Shown: positions 14,905-30,766 of the stretch, piece after piece
Position numbering within the stretch: position 1 is the first letter of the stretch
Layout: each line of letters begins with the position of its first letter
Origin: Planctomycetota bacterium
GTDB lineage: Bacteria > Planctomycetota > Phycisphaerae > WQYP01
Direction: 5' to 3'
NCBI GenBank assembly: GCA_021808105.1
Contig: JAKBCC010000032.1
Span: 1 to 34,388 of the forward strand
DNA length: 34,388 nucleotides
Program-made: the position numbers and the translations under genes
The notes under the pieces: model-generated
Told to the model about the DNA's origin: nothing
Database searches by the model: none
The model's input: only the letters and a program-made list of their open reading frames with translations

Positions 14905-17844
14905 TCAGCGTCCAACTGCTGTCAGCCGCAGCGTTTCGCCGGCACGCATGGCAAGCGACAGCGTTTTTCCTTTGATGGTCCTCTCCGGATGGCGCAACTG
15001 CGCCACCGCTACCCGTCGGCCCGGCCACGGATTCACAAGATGGCATTCTCCACCACGCTCACTGATGATTTGTACATACGCAACGCGCCCCTGATGCAGC
15101 CGACTGGAAATTAAAAAATCTCCACACGCCAGGAGATTTCCGAAGGACGCATTCTGATTTTTCGGCCAGTTTGGAAACACCAGAATATTCTTCTGATAGC
15201 TCTGAAGAAACATACCGCAGATTGTCGTCGGAACGGTGGCAAAATTTTCCGTTCCGCCGCCGCCCATCTGAAAAAGAAAATCAGGATAGGAAAAATGACT
15301 GATCAACATATCAAGATGATACAAGATTTTATTCGGATCATACCCCACCGCCGCGCATGCCGGATAAAAACTGGATGTGTTGTTGTAGTCATACCAAGTC
15401 TTCTGAAAGCTTACCGTATTAAGCGCTGCAGCCAGTTGGCTTTTTGGACTTTCCAGGCCAATCGCCCAGGCGGGAAAAATGACTTGATGCGAATTCATCC
15501 CCGCCGAAGATCCGCTGATGCGCACCGGCGGATGCACGGAAAGCAATTGGCCCAGATTGATCCATTGCGAACCAGTCAACGCATCACGAATCACGAATTT
15601 TCCTTGCACAGCCGCGCTGCCGACCGCATGGACAATGCCGGCAATGGAAGCCGCCGGCACGATTGGCAACGGACTTAAGTGCGCGAGGATATGTCGCCAC
15701 TGCCCGGCATCCGGGTCATTTAATTGCAGGCTATGATTCATATCCAGCAGCCCGGAATACAGCATCCGTAAAAAGGCGATGCTGGTCGCCGGGTTTACGT
15801 CATGGGGCGAATGCAATTCATCGGCGGCGTCGTTAAAGTCTATGTATATGCCATTCTTCAGCACCAGGTAATGATCCCAGAACCGCGCCACGCCGCGGAG
15901 AAATGGATATACCTTCCGTGCATAAGCTTTACTGCGGGTGTAACGCCAGCGTTGCAGGCAATCCACGCAGGAGAACAACGCATCAGATTTCTGCCGAAGT
16001 GTTTTTGCGCCGTCCGCGCTCCAGCCGGGCGGCGGGCTTAAGTGGCAATAGTAAAACAAGCCCTGATAATGCCGATGCCGCGCCAAACCATGCCCGCGCT
16101 GCATCCAATCCAGCAGAGCCTGATCATAATTATCCGCCAGTGCCACATGATTGGTCGGGTACGCCGCCCAATAAGGGGCTTCGTAATTGTAATCCAGCGT
16201 GTAATCGCCATTCCAGCCCATGTGCGGCGAGGTAATAAAATTACCCCACAAACCGGGCGCAATTTGTCCCGGTGCACTGCTGCACGCAAAAACATACAGC
16301 GACCCGTACCAGAAATTCTCAATGGGCTTATTGGCTATGTGAATATAGGATCGCCCCCAGAAGTTCTTCCACCATGCCAGATGCCGGTTCCATAGTTGCT
16401 CCACATCTGAAATATTTAATGCATGGAGCATTTTTAATGATGCCGCGCGATAATGGGCTGCATCCCGGTTATCCAGCACGGATACCAATATCGTTGCATC
16501 AGCTCCGGGTTGCAGCGTCAGCGATACGCGTGTGTTCATAACGCGTACACTTCCGCCAATAATGCGGAACGCCAGCAGTCCTTCCGGGGAGGCACCGTTA
16601 AAAGCAATCTGTTTATCGCCCGGGTGAATCGCATTCCAGTCCCACTGCGGGCCGACAACTTGCGCGGCCGTGGGAAATTGATTCGTGGCTGCCACGGATT
16701 GGCCATTGACCACCAGTGAAAGTCTCATACCATCATAAATGGCTGCAACATGGGACCACTGATTTAATGCCAACCTTCCAGGCGCGGTAACCCGCACGCG
16801 ATTGAGCATCGCGGATAATTTTCCGTTGATGGTCGAAAAGGTAAACCCGTAAGAAATCTGCGGCGGATTGGGTCCCGGTTGCCCCCAATGTTGCCAGGTA
16901 TCACTGGTCATGGCGCTGAAAATCGCCTCTGCGCCCGTGGCTGATCTCGGATAAACCCATGCCGAGACGGTAAACGCCTGCTGAGGCATCATCAGATTGC
17001 CGCAATCAACGTGTGTTGAGTGGCCGCGGGGATGATCGTTGCGGCTGACAGGGCGTGTTAAAAATGCAAACCTCGTACCCGACGGCACCGCCTGCGCAGT
17101 TGCCGGCATGTCACCCAGCATTCCCGCGGCAACCGCCTTTGGTAACACCCTTACGTCGGCGATCACGCCATGAAACGGCCCCGCCGGATCACGCCCGCTG
17201 GGCATACCAATTCGCGCATCGACCGTATCAGGTGATACCAGCAGATAGTTTAATTTACCGCGGTTGCCGGACATTCCCACCGCGCCGGCTGTACCCCACG
17301 CATCCAATAATTTCGGGCGAATAATCAAAGGCCGTTGGCCGCTGTTATGCAGTTGCATAACCAGAAGATTTTCCGGAGTTGCCACCCATGATTTAAACTG
17401 CAAATCGTGCCCGGTGTTGGTAGTAAAATTCCCCACAACATCCGCAGGGCCGATATTTTCGCGCGTCAGATAATTCCCGTTATGCAACGCCGGAATGGAC
17501 AAACTAAGCCGCCCCACCGGCATGATGCGCCCGCGCAACACACTCCAGAAATCCTCGCGCCCGATATACATGGCAATATGATCGGTATTGCGCCCCTGAA
17601 TCGCCACCCCGACGCTGCCATTCCCAATCACCGGCCCATCCGGAAACTTATTCGTCGGCGCATGGCCGGGCGCATGTGTGCGAACACCCGATATTTTAGA
17701 AACGATTTTCCATGCCGCCTGCGACACAGAATTATTGACCGCAGCACCAGACGTTGCGGCACACAGTACCATCCCAAGCAAGGCAGCCAAAATGTTTGAC
17801 CGTCCAGCACCAAAGCGTATCCCGCCGCCCAAAATACTGCGCAT
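14905..17844 (-). CDS. Secreted glycoside hydrolase-like protein (GH95-like alpha/alpha barrel) with inserted LamG/concanavalin-like region
   Basis: Start ATG 17844 with GGAGAG upstream. C-terminal NGDYTLDYNYEAPYWAAYPTNHVALADNYDQ and FATVPTTICGMFLQSYQKNILVFPNWP resemble GH95 barrel motifs. Middle region QQAFTVSAWVYPRSATGAEAIFSAM...LALNQWSHVAAIYDGMRLSLVVNGQSV is LamG-like. Confidence 0.7.
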   Translation of the reverse strand: MRSILGGGIRFGAGRSNILAALLGMVLCAATSGAAVNNSVSQAAWKIVSKISGVRTHAPGHAPTNKFPDGPVIGNGSVGVAIQGRNTDHIAMYIGREDFWSVLRGRIMPVGRLSLSIPALHNGNYLTRENIGPADVVGNFTTNTGHDLQFKSWVATPENLLVMQLHNSGQRPLIIRPKLLDAWGTAGAVGMSGNRGKLNYLLVSPDTVDARIGMPSGRDPAGPFHGVIADVRVLPKAVAAGMLGDMPATAQAVPSGTRFAFLTRPVSRNDHPRGHSTHVDCGNLMMPQQAFTVSAWVYPRSATGAEAIFSAMTSDTWQHWGQPGPNPPQISYGFTFSTINGKLSAMLNRVRVTAPGRLALNQWSHVAAIYDGMRLSLVVNGQSVAATNQFPTAAQVVGPQWDWNAIHPGDKQIAFNGASPEGLLAFRIIGGSVRVMNTRVSLTLQPGADATILVSVLDNRDAAHYRAASLKMLHALNISDVEQLWNRHLAWWKNFWGRSYIHIANKPIENFWYGSLYVFACSSAPGQIAPGLWGNFITSPHMGWNGDYTLDYNYEAPYWAAYPTNHVALADNYDQALLDWMQRGHGLARHRHYQGLFYYCHLSPPPGWSADGAKTLRQKSDALFSCVDCLQRWRYTRSKAYARKVYPFLRGVARFWDHYLVLKNGIYIDFNDAADELHSPHDVNPATSIAFLRMLYSGLLDMNHSLQLNDPDAGQWRHILAHLSPLPIVPAASIAGIVHAVGSAAVQGKFVIRDALTGSQWINLGQLLSVHPPVRISGSSAGMNSHQVIFPAWAIGLESPKSQLAAALNTVSFQKTWYDYNNTSSFYPACAAVGYDPNKILYHLDMLISHFSYPDFLFQMGGGGTENFATVPTTICGMFLQSYQKNILVFPNWPKNQNASFGNLLACGDFLISSRLHQGRVAYVQIISERGGECHLVNPWPGRRVAVAQLRHPERTIKGKTLSLAMRAGETLRLTAVGR

Positions 17845-18007
17845 AAAACAACTCTCCAATTTCGTCCGAATACCACCTCCATGTATTAACTGCAAATTCC
17901 CCACTTTGCAAGCGGCATTGTCATGCGGCGTGCGCGTCCTCGCGCGCAGCCAAGCCGTGCGCAGCAAGGCACCAGCGGGGCTAGCCATCGACGACTATTG
18001 GCACTGG

Positions 18008-19015
18008 CTACCGAATCGCCGCACGCCGCCAAGGCAGATTCATCGCAGCCGTGCCGGTAACGGCTGCGGTCACAGTGCCGTTGTGCAACCGCACGATGAT
18101 AGGCGTTTGGGCAAACCATTCACGCGTGGCATCCAGCGTTGCGTGCAATGGAAGCGGGGAGTGGAACAGGCCACGCGTGGAAATGCCGGAACCCGATGGC
18201 ACACGGACAAATACGACATGCGGTGCCCGGCCGGAATTTACCTCACTCTGGGCCAGTTGTTCATATACAGGGATAGTCTCGCGGCATTCGCCGCAACTGG
18301 CGTGGTAAAACATAAGGGTCCAATTGCCGACTGCAAGGCGCTGGCCCAATGGCAATGCGTGCCATCCCGCCACTCCAGGCGCGGCAGTGCCAGTGGAAAC
18401 AATATGCGCCAGCACCGGCAGCCGATGGCCGAGCCAATGGTGCGGCTCCAGGATCACCAGTTTGCCGGGATCCGCAGTGGCCAGGCCGTTGGCGGCAGAA
18501 ACAACTTTTGGATGCAGGGCTGCCGCAGCAATACCCACAGCCAAGCCAATAGCGGCCGCAGCCACAACGGGCCATTTACGCCTTGACCAGCGCGATGGAT
18601 CAATATCTTTCTCATCCGGCTTGGCAAGGAATAGCAGCGCCAGCGCGATGGCCACGTCCAGAATAAATGTGAGCCAAGGGTTGACATGGACCTGCCCAAA
18701 ACAGCCGCAATCGGCTTTGCCGGCAATTGCTTCGTAAAACGTGTAACAAGCAAACGCGCTGAAACAGCCAACGGCGACTTTCCGCGCCGCTTTCGGCAAC
18801 GCCCCGCTAACCAGCCACAGGCCGAGGCAGATTTCAAAGGCGATTAAGGGTGGTTCAAGGCTGTGGGCGGGAAGGGGTGCAACGGAGTTGTGCCACAATC
18901 TCAATATCGCCGCCGAAAGCAACACTCCGCCCACAGCGGATCCAGCGACGCCCCGATGGATAGTTGCGCGCGATGACCTGCATGAAACATAACGACCAGC
19001 GTCAAGGGCGTTCAT
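18008..19015 (-). CDS. MauE/DoxX-like redox membrane protein fused to a thioredoxin-like domain
   Basis: Multi-TM N-terminal half with LIAFEICLGLWLVSG...YTFYEAIAGKADCGCFGQVHVNPW; C-terminal NWTLMFYHASCGECRETIPVYEQLA (CxxC). Start probably ATG 19015. Confidence 0.75.
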   Translation of the reverse strand: MNALDAGRYVSCRSSRATIHRGVAGSAVGGVLLSAAILRLWHNSVAPLPAHSLEPPLIAFEICLGLWLVSGALPKAARKVAVGCFSAFACYTFYEAIAGKADCGCFGQVHVNPWLTFILDVAIALALLFLAKPDEKDIDPSRWSRRKWPVVAAAAIGLAVGIAAAALHPKVVSAANGLATADPGKLVILEPHHWLGHRLPVLAHIVSTGTAAPGVAGWHALPLGQRLAVGNWTLMFYHASCGECRETIPVYEQLAQSEVNSGRAPHVVFVRVPSGSGISTRGLFHSPLPLHATLDATREWFAQTPIIVRLHNGTVTAAVTGTAAMNLPWRRAAIR

Positions 19016-20108
19016 GGACGGGCACTCCCTTGGATGGATTAGTTGGAACGAAAGCCAGATATGGCACGCGGAAGGCATAATTTCTCCCCCGATACCGCAC
19101 CAGTATCTTTATGAGCCCTGAATCATCGCCGGGGGTCTTTTTCGCGGTGAACCCAACCTCCACATCCCGCCGGACGGCCGTGCCGCCCGGTTTGAAGGAG
19201 AATTCGCTGGGGCTTGTGGCCGCGATGTGCAGCAACCGTATTGGTGCCTTTGACGCCGGGTTTCTCGGTAGCAGAACCAGCTGGGTTTCGTGGGTCGCTG
19301 CAGGCCGAACCGTTCCGATAAGCAACGCCGGCTGCGAGATAACGACCGGCCCCTGAACCCTCACGCGGATCGCTCGGTACATATGGTATTTAAGAGGAAT
19401 CCCATGGTTCCAGAACGTGAAAACGATGTGGCTAACCACCTCGCCGAGGTACCGCTTGGGCTGATAGGAAGCCTCTAGCCGCCAGCGGCCCGCTCCAGTA
19501 GGCCGGAGACTCGCATGCAAACCGGGATCGTCCGTGGAGCAGGTCACTCGGGTCCACGCCATAGCTAATTTCCCACGCGTCAACTCCAAGGGAGGCAGTG
19601 TCTTGGGCGGAGCTCCGAGGGGCATGCGGCCGAAGCTGAGGGTGCCCGATTGGGCGGGGAAATTTATCGGGTAGGTGGTGCTGATAAAAAATACATACGT
19701 GAATTGGACGGGCCTGCCCGCAACCTGACCCATGAGCGTCGCCCCCAATGTCTTCCGTTGCGCATAGCCGGATGGGAGTATAACAAATGTGAGCCGGGCG
19801 GCACCGCCGGGAGCCACCGTCGAGCGATCCAGCGTGCACCTCGTGCAGACACACGTGGGCTCGAGCCGGGTAAGATGGAGGGTATGCCCCCATACGTCCC
19901 TTACGAGAAATGTGTGGCCGACCGAGCGGTTTGGCAAGGACGGGGGGAAGTGGAAGTTGATCCTCCTGACCAAATCTTCCGACCTTGGCGCGGGTCCATT
20001 TCGAAACGGAAGCCGCCAAGCGGCTGCCAAGCCGGCTATCACTGCGGCCACACCGAACAGCACGGCAGCCCATCTCCCGTGCCCCAAAAGGCCCTTGATA
20101 CTGTTCAC
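19002..20108 (-). CDS. DUF1573-like exported/membrane-anchored protein
   Basis: N-terminal TM; VGHTFLVRDVWGHTLHLTRLEPTCVCTRCTLDRSTVAPGGAARLTFVI resembles the DUF1573 pattern (tC.C......I.PG). Overlaps the downstream MauE-like gene by 14 bp. Confidence 0.7.
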   Translation of the reverse strand: MNSIKGLLGHGRWAAVLFGVAAVIAGLAAAWRLPFRNGPAPRSEDLVRRINFHFPPSLPNRSVGHTFLVRDVWGHTLHLTRLEPTCVCTRCTLDRSTVAPGGAARLTFVILPSGYAQRKTLGATLMGQVAGRPVQFTYVFFISTTYPINFPAQSGTLSFGRMPLGAPPKTLPPLELTRGKLAMAWTRVTCSTDDPGLHASLRPTGAGRWRLEASYQPKRYLGEVVSHIVFTFWNHGIPLKYHMYRAIRVRVQGPVVISQPALLIGTVRPAATHETQLVLLPRNPASKAPIRLLHIAATSPSEFSFKPGGTAVRRDVEVGFTAKKTPGDDSGLIKILVRYRGRNYAFRVPYLAFVPTNPSKGVPVHERP

Positions 20109-20169
20109 AGCGGCGGCTCCATTATTTCAGTTCCTGTTTTCGGTGCCGGCGATCCGCGGCAGTCGTGGA

Positions 20170-21390
20170 TTATTTGCGCCCTTCGGACGCCCGCTGGTTT
20201 TTTCGCGATAGAATCAGGACGAGTCCCGACGCGACAGCCAAGAATCCAAAAATTACGGCAAGCAGAGCATCTCGCGGTTTTCCAGTTGCCGCTACCGGCG
20301 GAAGACCGGAGGCGACGCCGTTTCGGGCCTTCGCTCGCTGGCCTGAAGCATTTGCGAGTGCCCCGCCGGCACCGAGGCTCCCGGCTGGCCAAGATTTGAT
20401 GCCTATCACGCGCTGCGGTGGCCTAACTCCCCCCTCATAATAGATCGTTCGGTGCGCATCGGCATCATAGATTTGCCTTGCCAAACGGAAGTCGATCTGA
20501 AACGCTGCCGGACCAATGGGTTGGTTGATGGTGCACGACACAACCTTGGTCAGGTGATCAGCATACAGATTTCCGTGCCTCCCGCGAAACCGCCAACGGA
20601 AAACCATCGGGCAGTAGAATTTCCCGCCGGAAGTGGCGATGGCCTTGTAGGCGAGGATATCACCTCGACGGCACCACGCCCCCGTCTTGGCGTACACCGT
20701 CTCAACAACCTCGGGCAAAAACGCAACCTTTCTCCCGAACTTGACGCGCCAAAACGCGCGGTGTCCATTAACGGTCCCACGGAACGGAATTTGTGCGATT
20801 GCGCTGTAGCGGCTGTTTTTAGCAACAGCGACCCATGTCGCCTTGGCAATCGCGGTGCTCGCAGCGTTGGCACTGCGCACCACGGGCAGCCTGATAGCCC
20901 TATTAGGGTGACCGTCCCGGCTCGGATCAAGAAATTCGACCGCCGCGAAGAAGGGGTTCGGCGACATCAGGTGGCTGCTGGGCCAACGATGCTTCTGGTA
21001 AAATAAGTACCCTGACCCCCCGTCGAGACATTCATAGCGTTTCCCGTTATAAGCGCTGCGGAAGTTCCACACCGCCACGCCCGGCGGCACTGAGTCAGAT
21101 GAGGCAAATTCGTTGCCCTGGGCGTGGAAGCTGATCTTCGAATCTCCTTTTACCAGACGCGACTTCTTGCGTCGCCGAAGGTGCCCATCCAATACGGGAA
21201 CATGGAACCGCAATTGCACACGCGCCGTCAGGCTCACGGACGTTACCAATCGATACTCGTCGAACAGAGACCGCAACCTGCCTCCGCTGTCGGCTGCCCG
21301 GACCCCGTCCCAGCAACCTTGGACTGCCCAAGCACCCAAGATACTCAGACACAGGGCACGAAAGGGGAATGAATTTGGTAAAATTCCCAT
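20170..21390 (-). CDS. Exported protein of unknown family with C-terminal TM anchor
   Basis: Start ATG 21390: MGILPNSFPFRALCLSILGAWAVQGCWDGVRA...; C-terminal LLAVIFGFLAVASGLVLILSRKNQR. Confidence 0.7.
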   Translation of the reverse strand: MGILPNSFPFRALCLSILGAWAVQGCWDGVRAADSGGRLRSLFDEYRLVTSVSLTARVQLRFHVPVLDGHLRRRKKSRLVKGDSKISFHAQGNEFASSDSVPPGVAVWNFRSAYNGKRYECLDGGSGYLFYQKHRWPSSHLMSPNPFFAAVEFLDPSRDGHPNRAIRLPVVRSANAASTAIAKATWVAVAKNSRYSAIAQIPFRGTVNGHRAFWRVKFGRKVAFLPEVVETVYAKTGAWCRRGDILAYKAIATSGGKFYCPMVFRWRFRGRHGNLYADHLTKVVSCTINQPIGPAAFQIDFRLARQIYDADAHRTIYYEGGVRPPQRVIGIKSWPAGSLGAGGALANASGQRAKARNGVASGLPPVAATGKPRDALLAVIFGFLAVASGLVLILSRKNQRASEGRK

Positions 21391-21601
21391 AGAGGGGCCG
21401 CCTTCATTGTTTATCGTTGCCGGAGTTTTCCAACCTGCGCCAGCCGGGGCCTCGCGCACTGGGGGCACCGTGGCGCGTGGGCAACAAGCGTCAGGTCCCT
21501 GCCACCGAGGTTGTACCGGAGCCCGACCAAGCATACCCCGAACACGCCATCGGCGGCGCAGACCGGGGCCACCCGAGACCCGTTGGGGACCAAATCAGCA
21601 A

Positions 21602-21922
21602 TCAGGTGCAGCCACTTCCCTGCACCCATCCGCCGCAGGCGGAGATCGTTACTCCCACCGTTTTCGTTTCCTGCCCGCAGCTACTTCCCGGTTGGTTGCC
21701 GCTGTCCAAACTTGTGGGGTCTGCCACAATCTCACCGGGGGTTACCACCATACAACTCGACGACGTCTGGCAACTGCCAGACCCAACGTAGCAGGCCGGT
21801 TCGTAACCAACTGCGGGGCGTGGTGCCGCCAGCGACGTGAGGATTGACGCCGCGAGGAATGTTACTCCCGCCACTGCGGCGGTGCGTGCAGCCATTTTTT
21901 TTCTGGGTTTTTGAATGCTCAT
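21602..21922 (-). CDS. Short exported Cys-rich protein
   Basis: MSIQKPRKKMAARTAAVAGVTFLAASILTSLAAPRPAVG-YEPACYVGSGSCQTSSSCMVV...SSCGQETKTVGVTISACGGWVQGSGCT: basic N-terminus, hydrophobic core, six Cys after it. Confidence 0.65.
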   Translation of the reverse strand: MSIQKPRKKMAARTAAVAGVTFLAASILTSLAAPRPAVGYEPACYVGSGSCQTSSSCMVVTPGEIVADPTSLDSGNQPGSSCGQETKTVGVTISACGGWVQGSGCT

Positions 21923-21988
21923 GATAAGGGATCCTTGTTAATACAAAACCGATCTCCGGGACGGTACCGTACCGGCCCGTGAACCAGC

Positions 21989-24985
21989 CTAATTTCTCCG
22001 GGCGCTATCCACGGCAGTATTCCTCGCCGCGTTGCGTAATATCGTGTAGCCGGCGGAGTGCCGCCACGATGTAAAAAGCCTTCCGGCCAGCGGCCTGTTT
22101 ACCGCCTGCTCAATCTTCCTTGAGGTCGCGAGGCCTTCGTCGATCTCCGCCGCCTCCCATCGCTTGAACAGCGAGTTTGCGTAATACTGTTGCGTCAAAA
22201 TTGGCTCGCCACTTGTGCCGGGAGAGGCTCCCCATTTCGGAAAAGCCCAGCGCAGTATAGCAATACCAACCTTGGTGCCGTCGCCCACCCAGATCGTCGG
22301 GTCGTTTCTTCTCACAAAACCCAACGCCTCAGAAACAGCCGACACTGCCCCAAAATTCCCTGGTCCCCGAAGGGCGGACGCACGGGCCCTCGATCGCAAC
22401 TGCAAAATTGCTGCGCGTCCACGGGCCTCTATCGCCTGTTTTCGTATGTTCCATTGGGTGGCGGAGCCATAATAGGGTGTTGGCCGCTGGTACAATGTGT
22501 CCAGCATCAGGGCCATGGGGGCGGTGTTCAGGGAATAATTTCGGGATATGCGTATCACCAGCCGCATAGGGCCTTGGACGATGAATCGTTTCCAGACGCC
22601 CCCGTAAAAATTACTGACCCTCGCGTCACATGTACCGGTCTGCAACGCGGCAAACCGCACGGAGGCTGCGGGTATCGCGCCCAGCAACAACTCATCCGGA
22701 TTCGCCTGCAGTTCGCCACGCCCAGGCCAGAATAAGGAACTTGTTCGGCGAATGGGAATCAGTTTGATGTAATAGTCCCGCTCGCGAGTGCCACCCCTGT
22801 GGCCGCCGTTATTACAGAAATAGATTGAGATCTCGTGCGCTCCGCGAGGCAGTCGCAAAAATTCATAAAAATCGGGACCCTGCCACGCCAATCCGTAAGC
22901 CTCCCCACCATCGTCCGCCGAAGCGAACGTCCGGCCCTGCGCCCCTGCGGGGGCCTGGCCGCCTCCACCATACCGATCACGGAGAAATACATTTGGAATT
23001 TCGAGGGCACGGTTGTCGTCCGTCCATGCCTTCTTTACCCAGTAACGGGCCGTGTTGACGCCAATGTGATGAGGGCCGATGAAATCCGTGTGGCATAAGC
23101 GTACGGATCGGGGCGACCAAACATCGTCCCACGTGTTCGGCGGATAGCCCGCCGCAAACAAGCACGCCCAATACCTGCCGTACCTGCCAAGCCAATTGCC
23201 TTGGGTTCGCCAATCATCGGTGATCGGGACAATCTGCGGCGATCTGCTTGGTGCGTGCTTTAATGCTTCCGCGAGCTGGTCCGCCATGCTTGCCAACTGA
23301 TCCCGTGTCGGCGGTGCTGCGGCTTCGGGGAATCTGGTGTTGGGTTGTCTTTCATTGATTCGCCTGGCCGCGTTTTGGCCGCCTTCCCAAGCGATGGTGG
23401 GATTGCCTTTGCCACCGACGGGCCTGCCCGCCGCGTTGTATACCGGACCATATCTTGCCACCAGCACCACCTTGGTTGGGCCGCCGAGGCCCTCGGAATC
23501 CTGGCCATCCAAGTGCTCGGGCAGAATTGCATTGACGTAATCCCCGCCGTGCCGCCAGGCACCTTTGGACAATGTATTGTGATAAATAATTCCTTTGCCG
23601 CTCTGGTATATCGCGTAGCCGTTACGCCAGGTGCCCAGATAGATTCTTCCTTTGAAGTCCTGGGCCAGACAAGTAATGTGATCGCCGGGCAGTAGGCGGC
23701 TTAAGCTTTGTGGACTGGGTTGTTTCCAATGTTTGGGTGGGTGCCACAGTTGTGCCACCTTGGCCGCATAATCCTGCCCTCTGATGTAATGCCAGCTTTG
23801 GCCGTCATCATCGCTGATGCCTAAACCCCAGTCTGTGGCGACATATACCTTGCTGGTCCTTTTTGTTACCAGAATCGCATTAATTAAATCGGATGGTAAG
23901 CCACTACCTGTGCCATGGATGGTTACATGGTCCGGGCCTTTGACGATTCTCCAATGCTGGTAGTTATCCTGCATAGTGGCGATTGCGAGGCCATTGCATT
24001 GCGTACCGGCAAAGACTCTTCCGGTTTTGTCAAAGGCGATGCAGTCTACTGGACTTGATGGTAAACCGTTGGCTTGCGTGATATAGCGCCATCGGCCAAA
24101 GAGCATGGGCGTATCGGTGCTGGTTTGCAGTGCAGGGTTGTTACCGCCGGTAAAGCCGGCGGCTTTGTGCACGCCGCGTAAGTCGGCATCCTTCTTCCCT
24201 GCTCCACGCGGATAATAAACCGATATGCCTGCTTCCGTGGATAGCCAGATACTGTGGTCTACCGGGTTTTCTGTGATGGCAAACACATGGCTGCCAATCG
24301 GGCCGTTGAATGTCATGGTACCTTCGTTGGGGAAATTGGGGTCTTTGGCACTGGCGGGTCGGCAGATTTCATCATAGTGCCGCCACTGCCAGCCGCTGCG
24401 GCCAATAAACCCTACCACCACTCCCTTACGCAACGTGCCCACCCATAGTCGGCCTTGAGAATCAAAGCAGACACTGTAGGTATTCCAACTGGGAAATCCA
24501 CCGCCCGCTTTTTCGGGATGGAACTGCACCCACCGATGTGGCGGACGGGCATCAGGCCGGAACATCACCAGCCCCTGGCCTTCGGTGGCCATGGCGATGG
24601 TTTGTCCGCCGGGGCAGGCGGCCATGGCCATGACAAAGTGGACTGGATAGGAGAGTTTACTATTAAGTATGCCATGGATAGGGTATGAAACCACCGGCGG
24701 TGGATGGAAAATGCTGTAGGCTGGCGGTGAATTAGCACGCCTGTTTACCGGATTATTTCTTGCAACAGCTTGGCGAGTTGCTTGGCCATTTGCATTGGCG
24801 GGGTTAACGGTGTTTACAGAGCTTGAAGATATCGCGTTGCTCGTGTTGTTACCGCCGGCAGAGCCGGCGGCTTTGTGGTTGGAACTGAAGAATAACTGCT
24901 TAGCAGAAATTGCCAGGCCAATCAGGGATGCTGCAAGCACCACCGCGGCCACCGGTATCAGGAATTTGTTGTTACGCCCATTCAT
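21989..24985 (-). CDS. Membrane-anchored beta-propeller protein (two-component-regulator-propeller-like repeats)
   Basis: N-terminal TM; repeats such as CFDSQGRLWVGTLRKGVVV, IAFDKTGRVFAGTQCNGLAI, ILVTKRTSKVYVATDWGLGIS, LAQDFKGRIYLGTWRNGYAIY. Start ATG 24985. Confidence 0.75.
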   Translation of the reverse strand: MNGRNNKFLIPVAAVVLAASLIGLAISAKQLFFSSNHKAAGSAGGNNTSNAISSSSVNTVNPANANGQATRQAVARNNPVNRRANSPPAYSIFHPPPVVSYPIHGILNSKLSYPVHFVMAMAACPGGQTIAMATEGQGLVMFRPDARPPHRWVQFHPEKAGGGFPSWNTYSVCFDSQGRLWVGTLRKGVVVGFIGRSGWQWRHYDEICRPASAKDPNFPNEGTMTFNGPIGSHVFAITENPVDHSIWLSTEAGISVYYPRGAGKKDADLRGVHKAAGFTGGNNPALQTSTDTPMLFGRWRYITQANGLPSSPVDCIAFDKTGRVFAGTQCNGLAIATMQDNYQHWRIVKGPDHVTIHGTGSGLPSDLINAILVTKRTSKVYVATDWGLGISDDDGQSWHYIRGQDYAAKVAQLWHPPKHWKQPSPQSLSRLLPGDHITCLAQDFKGRIYLGTWRNGYAIYQSGKGIIYHNTLSKGAWRHGGDYVNAILPEHLDGQDSEGLGGPTKVVLVARYGPVYNAAGRPVGGKGNPTIAWEGGQNAARRINERQPNTRFPEAAAPPTRDQLASMADQLAEALKHAPSRSPQIVPITDDWRTQGNWLGRYGRYWACLFAAGYPPNTWDDVWSPRSVRLCHTDFIGPHHIGVNTARYWVKKAWTDDNRALEIPNVFLRDRYGGGGQAPAGAQGRTFASADDGGEAYGLAWQGPDFYEFLRLPRGAHEISIYFCNNGGHRGGTRERDYYIKLIPIRRTSSLFWPGRGELQANPDELLLGAIPAASVRFAALQTGTCDARVSNFYGGVWKRFIVQGPMRLVIRISRNYSLNTAPMALMLDTLYQRPTPYYGSATQWNIRKQAIEARGRAAILQLRSRARASALRGPGNFGAVSAVSEALGFVRRNDPTIWVGDGTKVGIAILRWAFPKWGASPGTSGEPILTQQYYANSLFKRWEAAEIDEGLATSRKIEQAVNRPLAGRLFTSWRHSAGYTILRNAARNTAVDSARRN
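24137..24169. repeat. REP-like palindromic repeat, copy 1
   Basis: GTTGTTACCGCCGGTAAAGCCGGCGGCTTTGTG; 31/33 identical to copy 2. Confidence 0.8.
24845..24877. repeat. REP-like palindromic repeat, copy 2
   Basis: GTTGTTACCGCCGGCAGAGCCGGCGGCTTTGTG; CCGCCGGC-AGA-GCCGGCGG is a perfect 8-bp stem with a 3-nt loop. Confidence 0.8.
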
Positions 24986-25038
24986 CGTTGAACCCGATGC
25001 GTAAGCAAGACCCACGCGCGGTTGCCGGCCCGGTGAAA

Positions 25039-26429: not shown

Positions 26430-27518
26430 TTAAATCAATAAGGCGGCTTCAATGGCCAGGCCGGGGCCGAAGGCCAGCATCATGCAGGGTAATACCGCCT
26501 GCTGCTGGCGCAGACGCTCCACAATAAACAGGATCGTCGGGGAGGACATGTTGCCGCAGTCGGCCAGCACCGCACGGGAAACATCCAGTGCTGTGGGGGG
26601 CAAACTCAGGCTGGTGCTGACCGCATCCAGAATGCCCGGCCCGCCGGGATGAACCGCCCAGGAACCGATATTCGAAATAGTCATATTTCGCTGCGCCAGG
26701 AATTGCTCCAGCCAGGGTCTGAGGTTTTTCGCGATTAACGTCGGTACGCGCCGCGAAAGCGTCATCTGAAAACCATGATCCCCAATGCGCCAGGTCATAT
26801 CCGCATTTGATTCAGGCAATAGATATGAACCCGTGGCTTGGCACGTCCAGCGTTCGCCCGGCGCGCCAGGCTTTCCCACAATCGCTGCGGAACCGTCGGC
26901 AAATAACGCATTGGGCAATACGTTGTCGGTATTCCAGCCTTGCTGAAAATGGAGACTGCACAATTCCGTAGCACATAATAAAACCGTCGCATCCGCCTGG
27001 GCGTTGGCAATGGCCAGCGCCACCTGCAACGCATTAAGCGCCGCGTGGCAACCCATAAAACCGATATTCACCCGGCTGACCGAACGGGATAACCGCAACA
27101 TTTCTATAATTTCTCTATCCAGCCCCGGAGAAAAAAATCCGGTGCAGGAAACCGTTATCAGATGCGTCACGGCCGACGGGGCACAGCGTGCGTTGCCCAA
27201 CGCGGCTTGCGATGCACGAAGCGCCAAGGAAACAGCCTCAGTGGCATAACGGTCCATGCGCTGCCCGGTGCCGGGTCCGGCGGGGCCTGAACCGTTTGAG
27301 CCGCTCGATCCGTTCGACCCGTTATAAAACGGCGTGGCACCATCTTCCTGATCCAACAGCACGGTATGGCGGCGTTTAATAGTGGATTTGCGGTAAATGG
27401 TGGCCAGCAGGCGGGACTGCTTATCAGTGAGACCGTTTTGGGCAATAGCGCACGCTTTGTCCTGACTGATGCCGTACTGCGGCAGCGCCGTCCCCACACC
27501 GGTGATATGCAAGCCCAT
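26430..27518 (-). CDS. Type III polyketide synthase (chalcone/stilbene synthase superfamily)
   Basis: HLITVSCTGFFSPGLDREII (active-site Cys), GFMGCHAALNAL, WAVHPGGPGILDAV (His), LADCGNMSSPTILFIVERL (Asn), MMLAFGPGLAIEAALL. Confidence 0.93.
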   Translation of the reverse strand: MGLHITGVGTALPQYGISQDKACAIAQNGLTDKQSRLLATIYRKSTIKRRHTVLLDQEDGATPFYNGSNGSSGSNGSGPAGPGTGQRMDRYATEAVSLALRASQAALGNARCAPSAVTHLITVSCTGFFSPGLDREIIEMLRLSRSVSRVNIGFMGCHAALNALQVALAIANAQADATVLLCATELCSLHFQQGWNTDNVLPNALFADGSAAIVGKPGAPGERWTCQATGSYLLPESNADMTWRIGDHGFQMTLSRRVPTLIAKNLRPWLEQFLAQRNMTISNIGSWAVHPGGPGILDAVSTSLSLPPTALDVSRAVLADCGNMSSPTILFIVERLRQQQAVLPCMMLAFGPGLAIEAALLI

Positions 27519-27531
27519 TTGAACTCCACAA

Positions 27532-28677
27532 TTAAGCTATCGCCACAGGTCGATTTATCTGCCGGACAAGCGGTCCGGCCAATAGGGGTGCAATTCTCAG
27601 GGCATCAACCGCCAGTCGGGTGATGGCCCGATTGCGCAGTAACATGGTCATCGCCCGGCAGGTACGCTGTCGCGATCCAACCAGAGAATGGTACTGCTTC
27701 TGCCATTGCGGCCCCAGTTCATCGCGCCATGCCCCAACCGCTTTCTCAAGCAGCGGAATAATTTCCCTGGCGCCGGCTAAGGCCCAGGCCATTCCCTCTC
27801 CGGAAAACGGTTCAACATACCCCGCTGAGTCGCCGAGAATAAAAAGCCGCTGCCCAAAAAGTTTGCGACGACGGCGCGTCAGCGCCGGTGCTCCATACCA
27901 CCGGCATGTCTCCAGACCAGCGGGCACAGGAAATTCCGACTCCCGCATTATATCCGCTATGGCATTCGTTGCGCCGCCTGCGTCGCGCGCCGCGTTTGCA
28001 TCCAGTGCGGCAGCGATGTGAAGTCGCCGGTTTTCCACTGTTACCAGTCCGGCGTAACCACGTTTGCCACAGGCCATGTAGAGGATTCCCGCAGCGTATT
28101 CCTGGCAGACATCTTCAAGCGTTCCCGCAATACCAATGCGCGAATGTGCGGCAATTTCCAGATCCCCGTCATTGCGCAGCAGTCGCCCGCCAAGTCCATC
28201 GGCAATCAGTACGACTTTAGCCCGCAGCCGCGAAACCGTTGCATCCTGACGTATCGATAGTTCCCGGTGGGTGGAAAAGCCGGCTGTGGCCTCTGCCGTG
28301 GTGCGCGGCATAAAAGCTGCTCCGGCTTTTTGTGCATGGTGAATCAACGCCATATCCAACGCTTCCCGTGAAATGGCCAAACCGCCCGGTATGGGTATTT
28401 TGGCCGTTGCGCCCCCGCACGCCAGATTAAGCTGTTCAATGGGCGTTGCGCCTGAAGCATGGATATCACATTCCGCGTCTTCCAGCAATTTTACCGCCGC
28501 CGCATTCAAACAGCATCCGCACGCTTTGCCGCGGGGAAATGCGGCCTTATCAATTAACAGCACGCTTAATCCGCTCCGCGCGGCACCATAAGCCGCCATA
28601 GCTCCTGCCACGCCGGCCCCCACCACCAGGACGTCCCACAGGGCCTCTGCGTGCCCGGGCGCAGACAAGCAACTCAT
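27532..28677 (-). CDS. FAD-dependent oxidoreductase (geranylgeranyl reductase / aromatic hydroxylase-like)
   Basis: WDVLVVGAGVAGAMAAYGAARSGLSVLLIDKAAFPRGKACGCCLN; LFILGDSAGYVEPFSGEGMAWALAGAREI. Confidence 0.9.
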   Translation of the reverse strand: MSCLSAPGHAEALWDVLVVGAGVAGAMAAYGAARSGLSVLLIDKAAFPRGKACGCCLNAAAVKLLEDAECDIHASGATPIEQLNLACGGATAKIPIPGGLAISREALDMALIHHAQKAGAAFMPRTTAEATAGFSTHRELSIRQDATVSRLRAKVVLIADGLGGRLLRNDGDLEIAAHSRIGIAGTLEDVCQEYAAGILYMACGKRGYAGLVTVENRRLHIAAALDANAARDAGGATNAIADIMRESEFPVPAGLETCRWYGAPALTRRRRKLFGQRLFILGDSAGYVEPFSGEGMAWALAGAREIIPLLEKAVGAWRDELGPQWQKQYHSLVGSRQRTCRAMTMLLRNRAITRLAVDALRIAPLLAGPLVRQINRPVAIA

Positions 28678-29360
28678 TTCCGACTCCAGGTCAAGACAAA
28701 GCGAAATGGGAAACGCGGTTCAATTTTGACATCCGTCAACCCCGCCTGCGCCGCCAGGCCGGCACTTTCCGCTATGGTGTACGCTGCCCGGACCGATCTT
28801 GGGCCATCTACGCACACCACATGCGAGCCCAGCACACAGGCGGCACCTAAGGCCAGTAGCCACCCGGCGGTAGAACGCCGCAGATCATTGACAATCAACC
28901 GCTGCCCGGCTCCCCCGGCCAACTTTTTCAAGAACGCAACGGCCTGTGCAGAATCCAGATGGTGCATAAACAAAGAACTCACAACAATATCATAGCCCTG
29001 CGGAACCGGGTCCGTGAAAAGATCCCAGGTAAACCAGTCAATGGAAGCACCCTGCTTTTCTGCATTGGCTTTGGCATGTGCAATGGCGGTCGGGCTTTTA
29101 TCACATCCGGCAATCTGCAATTTTACACCGGCCCGATCCGCCAACTTCCACAGGGCAATCGGGACATCCCCCCCGCCCGTGGCGACATCTAATACGCGCA
29201 ACATCCCACTGTTTTCACCCATCGATTGAATTTCACGCCACACAATTCCTGCACTGTCACTCCACTTATTAATGCGCTCCAAAGCCGCCAAAGCACGGTG
29301 GTGAATTTCCGGCGATATTTCCGGCGAATCCATAATTTCCGGTACGCGCTTTTGCTTCAT
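28674..29360 (-). CDS. SAM-dependent methyltransferase (class I)
   Basis: LRVLDVATGGGDVPIALWKLADRAGVKLQIAGCDKSPTAIAHAKANAEKQG...YDIVVSSLFMHHLDSAQAVAFLKKLAGGAGQRLIVNDLRRS; ATGA overlaps on both sides. Confidence 0.9.
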   Translation of the reverse strand: MKQKRVPEIMDSPEISPEIHHRALAALERINKWSDSAGIVWREIQSMGENSGMLRVLDVATGGGDVPIALWKLADRAGVKLQIAGCDKSPTAIAHAKANAEKQGASIDWFTWDLFTDPVPQGYDIVVSSLFMHHLDSAQAVAFLKKLAGGAGQRLIVNDLRRSTAGWLLALGAACVLGSHVVCVDGPRSVRAAYTIAESAGLAAQAGLTDVKIEPRFPFRFVLTWSRK

Positions 29361-30766
29361 AACATCTCCTCTGTTAACGCCCGCAGCAGCGCGGACGCTT
29401 TGGCCATGATTTCTGCGTGTTCTTCATCGGCATTGCTGTCCGCGGTTATGCCGGCACCGGAACGGAATTTCGCAATACCATTAAAAATATGAATGGTGCG
29501 GATGGCTATATTTAATGTGCCGTCACCGCTGGGGCTGATCCATCCGATATTGCCGCAGTATATTCCCCGCGGATGGTGTTCCAATTCATGGATAATCTCC
29601 ATAGCTCTGATTTTTGGCACACCGGTAATTGAACCGCCCGGGCACAGCGCGGTGATGATCCGACTCCAGGTACTTTCCTGTTGCTGTAATATACCTGTGA
29701 TAACTCCGTGCGTATGCCAGAGTGTGGGCAATTTTTGGACTTCCCGGCTCTTTTCCACGCGCACGCTGGTGCACACGCGCCCCAGATCATTGCGCAGTAA
29801 ATCCACAATCATCGCTAATTCGGAGCGGTCTTTTTCGCTGTGCAGCAGTTCACCACAGCGTTGCTGATCGGCAACAGGATCGTCGCATACGCGCGGGCGG
29901 GTGCCTTTGATGGGGCGTGTTTCCAGTAATTCTCCGGTGCGTTGCAGAAATAACTCCGGCGAGGCGCAAAGAATTTCATGCTCCCCATACCGTAAAAACG
30001 CGGCATACTGTGCGGGGTTTTTTTCCACCAGCCGCCTGAAAATCTGATATCCCGGCTCGGCCACGCGGGCGGTCCAGAGTGCGGATATATTGGCCTGATA
30101 TATATCCCCGGCGGCAATATATTCCTGGCATCGGTGCACAGCCGCCTTGAATGCGACACGATCCGGGTATTGCACGCCTGTTGCTTGAGCCGGCGCGCAC
30201 AAGGGTTGAACGCAGGTGTTTGCCGCGCGGAATTGGCATTGCATGTGCCCCATGACAGTTTCCGCTTCGCCGGAATTCGGGTGCAGCGCCACCAGAAGCC
30301 ATTGCTGCCTGGCCGCATCAAAAACAAAATAGCGCTCAAAGAGTTGCCAGTGCGCCAGCGGAATATCCGTTGACGACAGATCATACAACTGCGGCAATTC
30401 CGCCATGACGCCGGCTTCATAACTGAACCAACCGAGCCATCCCACACGATCCGGCAGCGCACCGGAAAATGAAATCTCGCCAATAGTATCCTGCCAGCGC
30501 TGCCAAGCCGTGGCCGGCGTCGTGGTGTGGTTTTGAGCCGCTTCGCCGCCCGCCGCCAACCCTGTACAGTGCAATTTAATTTGCCCGTCTTGCGCAGCCA
30601 CACACACACTGGAAAGCGAGTGGACCGCAAAAACCGCATGGCCCCCCTGTCCGCTATGCAACATCGCGATGTCCCCGTGTTGTGCCGCCAACACGCTTAG
30701 CAGACGCAGTGGATGAAGGTTGCTATCGGCATAGAAACTGTGAACCGTGAGTTTGCAACCAGCCAT
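29357..30766 (-). CDS. pabB: Aminodeoxychorismate synthase component I
   Basis: Chorismate-binding enzyme motifs: ASPELFLQRTGELLETRPIKGTRPR (PIKGTRPR as in PabB), DLLRNDLGRVC, CPGGSITGVPKIRAMEIIHELE, YCGNIGWIS, SGAGITADSNADEEHAEIMAKASALL. Confidence 0.92.
   Translation of the reverse strand: MAGCKLTVHSFYADSNLHPLRLLSVLAAQHGDIAMLHSGQGGHAVFAVHSLSSVCVAAQDGQIKLHCTGLAAGGEAAQNHTTTPATAWQRWQDTIGEISFSGALPDRVGWLGWFSYEAGVMAELPQLYDLSSTDIPLAHWQLFERYFVFDAARQQWLLVALHPNSGEAETVMGHMQCQFRAANTCVQPLCAPAQATGVQYPDRVAFKAAVHRCQEYIAAGDIYQANISALWTARVAEPGYQIFRRLVEKNPAQYAAFLRYGEHEILCASPELFLQRTGELLETRPIKGTRPRVCDDPVADQQRCGELLHSEKDRSELAMIVDLLRNDLGRVCTSVRVEKSREVQKLPTLWHTHGVITGILQQQESTWSRIITALCPGGSITGVPKIRAMEIIHELEHHPRGIYCGNIGWISPSGDGTLNIAIRTIHIFNGIAKFRSGAGITADSNADEEHAEIMAKASALLRALTEEML

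Follow-up and report, generated by a model that had tools for sequence, protein, structure and literature searches.

A putative modular operon for cysteine-rich exported peptides and their matched partner proteins in a family of Planctomycetota

The mau cluster encodes a beta-propeller protein, a small exported Cys-rich subunit, MauE and the thioredoxin-like protein MauD together, and in Bacteroidota loci of the NVEALA type short exported peptides are found near propeller, DUF1573 and MauE-like genes. According to those parts of PMC7794033 that deal with MauE, this protein and MauD are cited as essential in methylamine metabolism, a role of MauE in forming the disulfides of the small (beta) subunit of methylamine dehydrogenase is speculated on, and candidate clusters for ribosomally synthesized and post-translationally modified peptides (RiPPs), found in Streptomyces with decRiPPter, have MauE homologues beside precursors with at least eight Cys. 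An apparently undescribed operon type is reported here from a Planctomycetota bacterium (assembly GCA_021808105.1). The window, i.e., the whole stretch of DNA that was analyzed, is contig JAKBCC010000032.1 of 34,388 nucleotides (C37 of a 3.86-Mb genome). On its minus strand, five genes follow each other in the order of transcription: PROP, encoding a propeller; PEP, encoding a six-Cys peptide; EXP, encoding an exported protein; a gene for a DUF1573-like protein; and MauE-Trx, encoding a MauE and thioredoxin-like membrane protein. The initial annotation had described the last four as one same-strand unit at 18008-21922; all four open reading frames (ORFs) were found there, while the propeller gene at the 5' end and the independence of the peptide modules from the platform had been missed.

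In the Planctomycetota family of the window, this cassette is a repeated operon type, often present in several copies per genome. Most genomes of the same genus and family contain homologues of MauE-Trx, up to 68% identical, with a maximum of eight matches in one genome. The genes around these homologues repeatedly form the series PROP, a short ORF for a Cys-rich exported peptide, an EXP-like gene, a DUF1573 gene and a MauE gene, which is conserved in many of the approximately 80 loci listed. A search with propeller alignment A1 found 67 loci in public genomes, nearly all of them metagenome-assembled genomes (MAGs) of Planctomycetota and several of these Phycisphaerales or Phycisphaerae; in a sample of 397 genomes of the class, matches to it were obtained in 25 of 28 members of the window's family and in 11 genomes outside it. 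When a single criterion is applied throughout, high-scoring propellers are followed by a short ORF for a Cys-rich exported peptide in 16 of 29 cases and other genes in 10 of 513, eight of these ten background positives being cassette peptides themselves; since the loci are related and those of the same family not independent, the Fisher p of 1e-16 for this comparison is not readable as a probability. The contigs of the MAGs are short, and many of the cassettes are truncated. Taken together, the conserved cassette order in many genomes and the Cys pattern of peptide class I described below indicate more than chance.

Where the propeller scores lower and its C-terminal match is shorter, the next gene mostly encodes an exported protein other than such a peptide. 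These relatives of PROP (L125, L152, L157, L158, L160 and others) head further exported-protein cassettes (clusters 15, 16, 17, 22 and 23), and the propeller may therefore work with several types of cargo. The window's own genome contains a second cassette (L096:5645-10049, G000:C17) that combines genes for a class V peptide with 11 Cys, an EXP protein and a DUF1573 protein and is flanked on both sides by incomplete MauE pieces. A prepilin-like DUF1559 gene lies 3' of MauE in many cassettes, and a gene for an extracytoplasmic function (ECF) sigma factor is located between PROP and the first peptide gene in L242 (5314-6426), a diverged one being found in L241 (12673-13398); this position hints at regulated expression.

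On the sequence evidence, PEP (21602..21922, minus strand) is a real gene. As proposed in the initial annotation, it encodes a small precursor, 106 amino acids long, in which a hydrophobic, signal-like N-terminus is followed by six Cys (ACYVGSGSC, SSSC, SSC, SAC, SGC). A Shine-Dalgarno-like AAGGA is read 9 nt 5' of the ATG (21932..21936, minus strand), and the predicted mature portion, YEPACYV...GSGCT (21605..21805, minus strand; putative cleavage site), would hold all six Cys. Neither Pfam nor NCBIfam gave a match over cut-off, and a plain-sequence search in 61 relatives returned the self-match and one chance match only; PEP being too divergent for such a search, the neighboring genes were used instead. 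By alignment A2 and its Cys pattern, the peptide is placed in class I, defined by C-x5-7-C-x5-21-C-x22-28-CG-x7-19-CG-x6-9-C. This pattern is present in all 11 peptides accompanied by EXP clusters 5/18, in none of 30 other candidates and in none of 5500 shuffles. Invariant residues in the peptide alignments are almost exclusively Cys and two Gly, and 35 of 40 peptides have an even number of Cys, in keeping with complete pairing into disulfides. Of eight peptide pairs that could be compared, seven have a ratio of nonsynonymous to synonymous substitution rates (dN/dS) of 0.17-0.38, with dS saturated in several pairs, a ninth pair with six aligned codons only having been left out of the count. 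In the pair L078/L109 the mature part is 88% identical with a dN/dS of 0.17, and the leader is less conserved. Both recurrence beside these genes in relatives and purifying selection on the ORF, on which the initial annotation had staked its interpretation, were thus found. A leader, A5, is common to peptides of different classes, its matches below 1e-4 being confined to the family of the window, and the leader of the window PEP differs from it; a leader profile gave no match at 1e-5 in a 392-genome sample of the phylum, which shows little, as the sample contains no known positive.

The peptides form Cys-pattern classes that, as far as the sequences reveal, follow the subfamily of their EXP and DUF1573 neighbors. 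For this comparison, the neighboring genes were clustered, yielding several EXP clusters and several DUF1573 clusters, each set being chained by profile comparison; the statistics use these partner clusters, built without the peptides, whose classes had first been sorted by eye. The number of Cys per peptide is 6-7 with EXP clusters 5/18, 12-14 with EXP 19, 8-11 with EXP 13, 10-11 with EXP 9, 8-10 with EXP 8 and 6-8 with the helper c4, and it differs among the partner classes (Kruskal-Wallis p 1.8e-6). In 31 of 40 cases, versus 6.8 expected, a peptide and its nearest neighbor of less than 55% identity have the same partner class, a value reached in none of 5000 permutations. Several modules may be stacked in one operon (L242, L241, L080, L246, L248). 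In L242, a single PROP and a single MauE-Trx plus a prepilin-like gene enclose three modules, namely PEP-EXP19-DUF20, PEP-EXP13-DUF11 and PEP-EXP9-DUF14, and L241 has three peptides, the helper c4, a short MauE and one PROP.

Platform and cargo vary INDEPENDENTLY, with the peptide class distributed almost randomly on the PROP tree. Propeller identity is 0.439 between cassettes of the same peptide class and 0.443 between those of different classes. On a propeller tree of 26 rows, on which multi-module operons were entered by the class of their first module, 15 class changes are counted versus a shuffled mean of 16.4 and a possible minimum of 5. The nearest relatives of the window PROP, in L102 (66% identical) and L103 (61%), are accompanied by peptides of other classes, and the MauE-Trx proteins of L085 and L086 are 83% identical, their peptides belonging to class II and class I, respectively. 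This looks like a fixed platform with peptide modules that would be either exchangeable or differentially kept. Differential loss from ancestral multi-module operons, which would leave the function as proposed below, and is compatible with that proposal, is a serious contender, with a chance not far short of even; stacked operons do exist, although no operon with all classes was found and the 15 changes on the PROP tree would require many parallel losses. It is tentatively conceivable, with the odds leaning against it, that a conserved envelope platform of propeller, MauE-Trx, often a prepilin-like protein and sometimes an ECF sigma gene receives disulfide-rich peptide modules with private LolA-fold/DUF1573 carrier pairs that are exchanged between lineages, which would give rise to a shifting set of mini-proteins, displayed or secreted.

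Our preferred interpretation, to which we assign a probability of roughly 0.55, is a modular operon in which MauE-Trx makes the peptide disulfides, EXP and the DUF1573 protein act as a cognate carrier pair and PROP serves as platform. The platform would consist of PROP at the 5' end and MauE-Trx, often together with the prepilin-like DUF1559 protein, at the 3' end, enclosing one to three modules, each composed of a Cys-rich exported peptide together with a LolA-fold and a DUF1573 protein dedicated to it. The peptide would be exported through its Sec-type signal; MauE would swap electrons with its thioredoxin-like domain, which would form or isomerize the peptide disulfides; the cognate EXP-DUF1573 pair would hold or deliver its particular peptide; and the folded peptide, at the cell surface or in the periplasm, would be displayed on the propeller or work together with it. 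A task outside the cytoplasm as antagonist, signal or binding subunit is possible. This scenario builds on recurrence, gene order, purifying selection, class-partner matching, redox motifs and independence from the platform tree, from which we infer the direction of the redox reaction, the carrier role, the presentation of PEP by PROP and the final place and task of the peptide. Where the initial annotation had suggested an export and maturation system, a maturation partnership is indeed the best reading, given that the peptide gene recurs beside MauE and DUF1573, is under purifying selection and covaries with its neighbors; export machinery is not encoded in the cassette, and export would proceed by an ordinary Sec-type signal. 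That interpretation is, overall, partly supported. Further support for the preferred interpretation comes from a 17-Cys peptide with a twin-arginine translocation (Tat) signal, a distant relative of light-chain-like peptides, which also adjoins a window-type MauE-Trx.

MauE-Trx (18008..19078, minus strand) matches PF07291 (MauE) with 30.7 bits, above the Pfam cut-off of 27, and carries both DCGCFG and, at residues 262-265 (18284..18295, minus strand), the thioredoxin-like CGEC named in the initial annotation; CGCFG and YHxxCxxC are conserved across the homologues, both Cys of CGEC being kept in about 90% of 28 of them. The DUF1573-like protein (19002..20108, minus strand) has the predicted CVCTRC motif; its PF07610 match is below threshold (20.1 bits versus 26.1, E 6.5e-4), and its own cluster is homologous to clusters above cut-off, cassette homologues scoring 25.8-47.9 bits. 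EXP (20170..21534, minus strand), rightly called a protein of unknown family insofar as neither Pfam nor NCBIfam gave a match, has a C-terminal hydrophobic anchor and a fold that had been overlooked: the AlphaFold2 model has a mean predicted local distance difference test score (pLDDT) of 59, with 70-86 in the core, and Foldseek against the PDB ranked LolB and LolA at the top (E 2.6e-7 to 1e-6, probability 1.00, template modeling score 0.59 by target), which together give modest but consistent support for a LolA-type half-barrel. PROP (21989..25015, minus strand; 1008 amino acids, exported or membrane-anchored) contains Reg_prop repeats (Pfam E 3.5e-14), and its profile matched the periplasmic sensor propellers 4a2l and 3v9f in the PDB at E of about 1e-37 as well as PorZ; the C-terminal half is conserved in cassette loci. 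NCBIfam models gave sub-threshold matches only on the window genes, and the score for the BT_3928 family (NF045576) was 46.4 bits versus a curated 250.

Several observations weigh against the proposed operon function. The thioredoxin-like part of MauE-Trx is below the Pfam cut-off (E 0.05), and the cassettes of classes VI and VII have a short MauE without this part as well as the helper c4, whose similarity to EXP is not detectable by profile comparison. The structure prediction for PEP is of low confidence (pLDDT 52) and gives neither a fold nor a disulfide map. The eighth peptide pair has a dN/dS of 0.76, to which the saturated dS and the sorting of classes by eye have to be added. L066 (3667-10160) keeps EXP, DUF1573 and MauE with no recognized peptide, and the window lacks a prepilin-like gene after MauE-Trx. 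L066 has a truncated propeller and two EXP-DUF1573 pairs; its cassette may be decaying.

An unlikely alternative would be an exported enzyme or binding complex of two subunits in which the peptide, as the small one, is joined by PROP, directly analogous to the light and heavy chains of methylamine dehydrogenase and devoid of the quinone. Propeller, Cys-rich small protein and MauE/Trx correspond to the mau layout, and light-chain-like proteins occur in the same family and can adjoin the same MauE-Trx. In L074 (2286-5256; also in L075), the 17-Cys Tat peptide and a 381-amino acid exported protein are encoded next to a MauE-Trx of the window type and a peptide module of class V. The 17-Cys peptide shows a faint light-chain match (E 4.2 and 1.1) and is related (E 6e-6) to a peptide of L209, which matches PF02975 at 0.0019 and TIGR02659 at 1.1e-4; eight of nine PDB matches of the latter peptide, each with a weak E-value, are to light chains of methylamine or aromatic amine dehydrogenase. 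L209 (1-5244; G018:C45) is an array of tandem light-chain-like Tat peptides alternating with mutually homologous proteins of 372-562 amino acids without Pfam match, and this array possibly encodes divergent two-subunit enzymes; one of the Tat peptides apparently keeps both cofactor Trp positions. Identity with methylamine dehydrogenase was rejected for the window locus: PEP has no PF02975 or TIGR02659 match (none of the 61 genomes being above cut-off), PROP matches Reg_prop and no heavy-chain model, its PDB matches being sensor propellers and PorZ, and no Trp is conserved in the class I alignment where two would be expected. The same features speak against the subunit explanation, as does the independence of PROP lineage from peptide class, unlike what would be expected of an obligate subunit pair.

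Less likely still is that the peptides are secreted bacteriocin-like antagonists or signals, with EXP and DUF1573 proteins as cognate immunity or receptor and modules that swap like toxin-immunity modules. Small, Cys-rich, secreted peptides, several per genome, in stacked modules with matched partners and varying independently of the platform would suit such a role. In the one pair for which this was examined, however, the mature parts are subject to purifying selection and better conserved than the leader; no transporter or processing peptidase was seen, and the propeller and redox platform would stay unexplained; to our knowledge, neither the LolA fold nor DUF1573 is familiar as an immunity fold. 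An anti-phage defense identity was rejected as well, PADLOC models giving no match. That MauE-Trx and DUF1573 serve envelope redox chemistry in general, with the peptide an unrelated cell-wall protein located there by chance, is very improbable and already disfavored by recurrence far over background and class-partner matching, even though MauE-Trx genes without such peptides exist in other families (L088, L089, L091).

Concerning gene boundaries, which were called by simple ORF rules rather than a trained gene finder, with signal peptides assessed on hydrophobicity alone, the likely start of PROP is near 24982, and the gap to PEP is 66 bp. EXP and MauE-Trx probably start at the internal ATGs 21390 and 19015, respectively, which have better ribosome sites; with the latter start, MauE-Trx overlaps the DUF1573 gene. 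Directly 3' of MauE-Trx, in the place taken elsewhere by the prepilin-like gene, a gene for a GH95-like glycoside hydrolase with a laminin-G (LamG) domain is found (14905-17988, minus strand). At 26430-30766 (minus strand), translations read by eye suggest type III polyketide synthase-, FAD oxidoreductase-, methyltransferase- and pabB-like genes in a row.

Summarizing, peptide classes that track the EXP/DUF1573 subfamily, stacked three-peptide operons and a PROP tree near-random to peptide class are new observations. MauE-type membrane redox proteins would likely have a wider job beyond amine oxidation, namely to load small exported proteins with disulfides, and the cassettes offer a natural set of matched peptide-partner pairs for probing what DUF1573 and LolA-fold proteins bind. 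If the modules truly exchange, Planctomycetota would have a repertoire system of a new kind, from which many unrelated, disulfide-rich scaffolds for mini-proteins could be drawn.

In comparison with known systems, no match to NVEALA (PF14055), the peptide type of the loci to which the initial annotation had loosely likened the layout, was obtained in the window's genome, a Bacteroides control genome being matched, and the literature searched yielded neither a paper naming NVEALA nor one treating MauE together with DUF1573. EXP shares the modeled fold with the LolA/LolB carriers and differs from them in lacking a sequence match, in its larger size and, in the window, in its C-terminal anchor. 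PROP belongs to the same propeller sequence family as PorZ and the Reg_prop sensors of hybrid two-component systems (4a2l, 3v9f), from which it is distinguished by its own conserved C-terminal half and the lack of a kinase. A known class-defining RiPP modifying enzyme was not detected in Pfam and NCBIfam scans of the window genes and representative cassette members. The decRiPPter clusters resemble the cassette in having MauE, and in one family also MauD, beside Cys-rich precursors; they are predicted families of Actinobacteria, for which the relevant parts of PMC7794033 mention no propeller, LolA-fold or DUF1573 partner. With the mau cluster, the window cassette has in common the propeller, the Cys-rich small exported protein and MauE, to which a thioredoxin-like part with a sub-threshold Pfam match and a conserved CxxC is fused that may correspond to MauD; it differs in the additional LolA-fold and DUF1573 partners and in the possibility of several peptides per platform.

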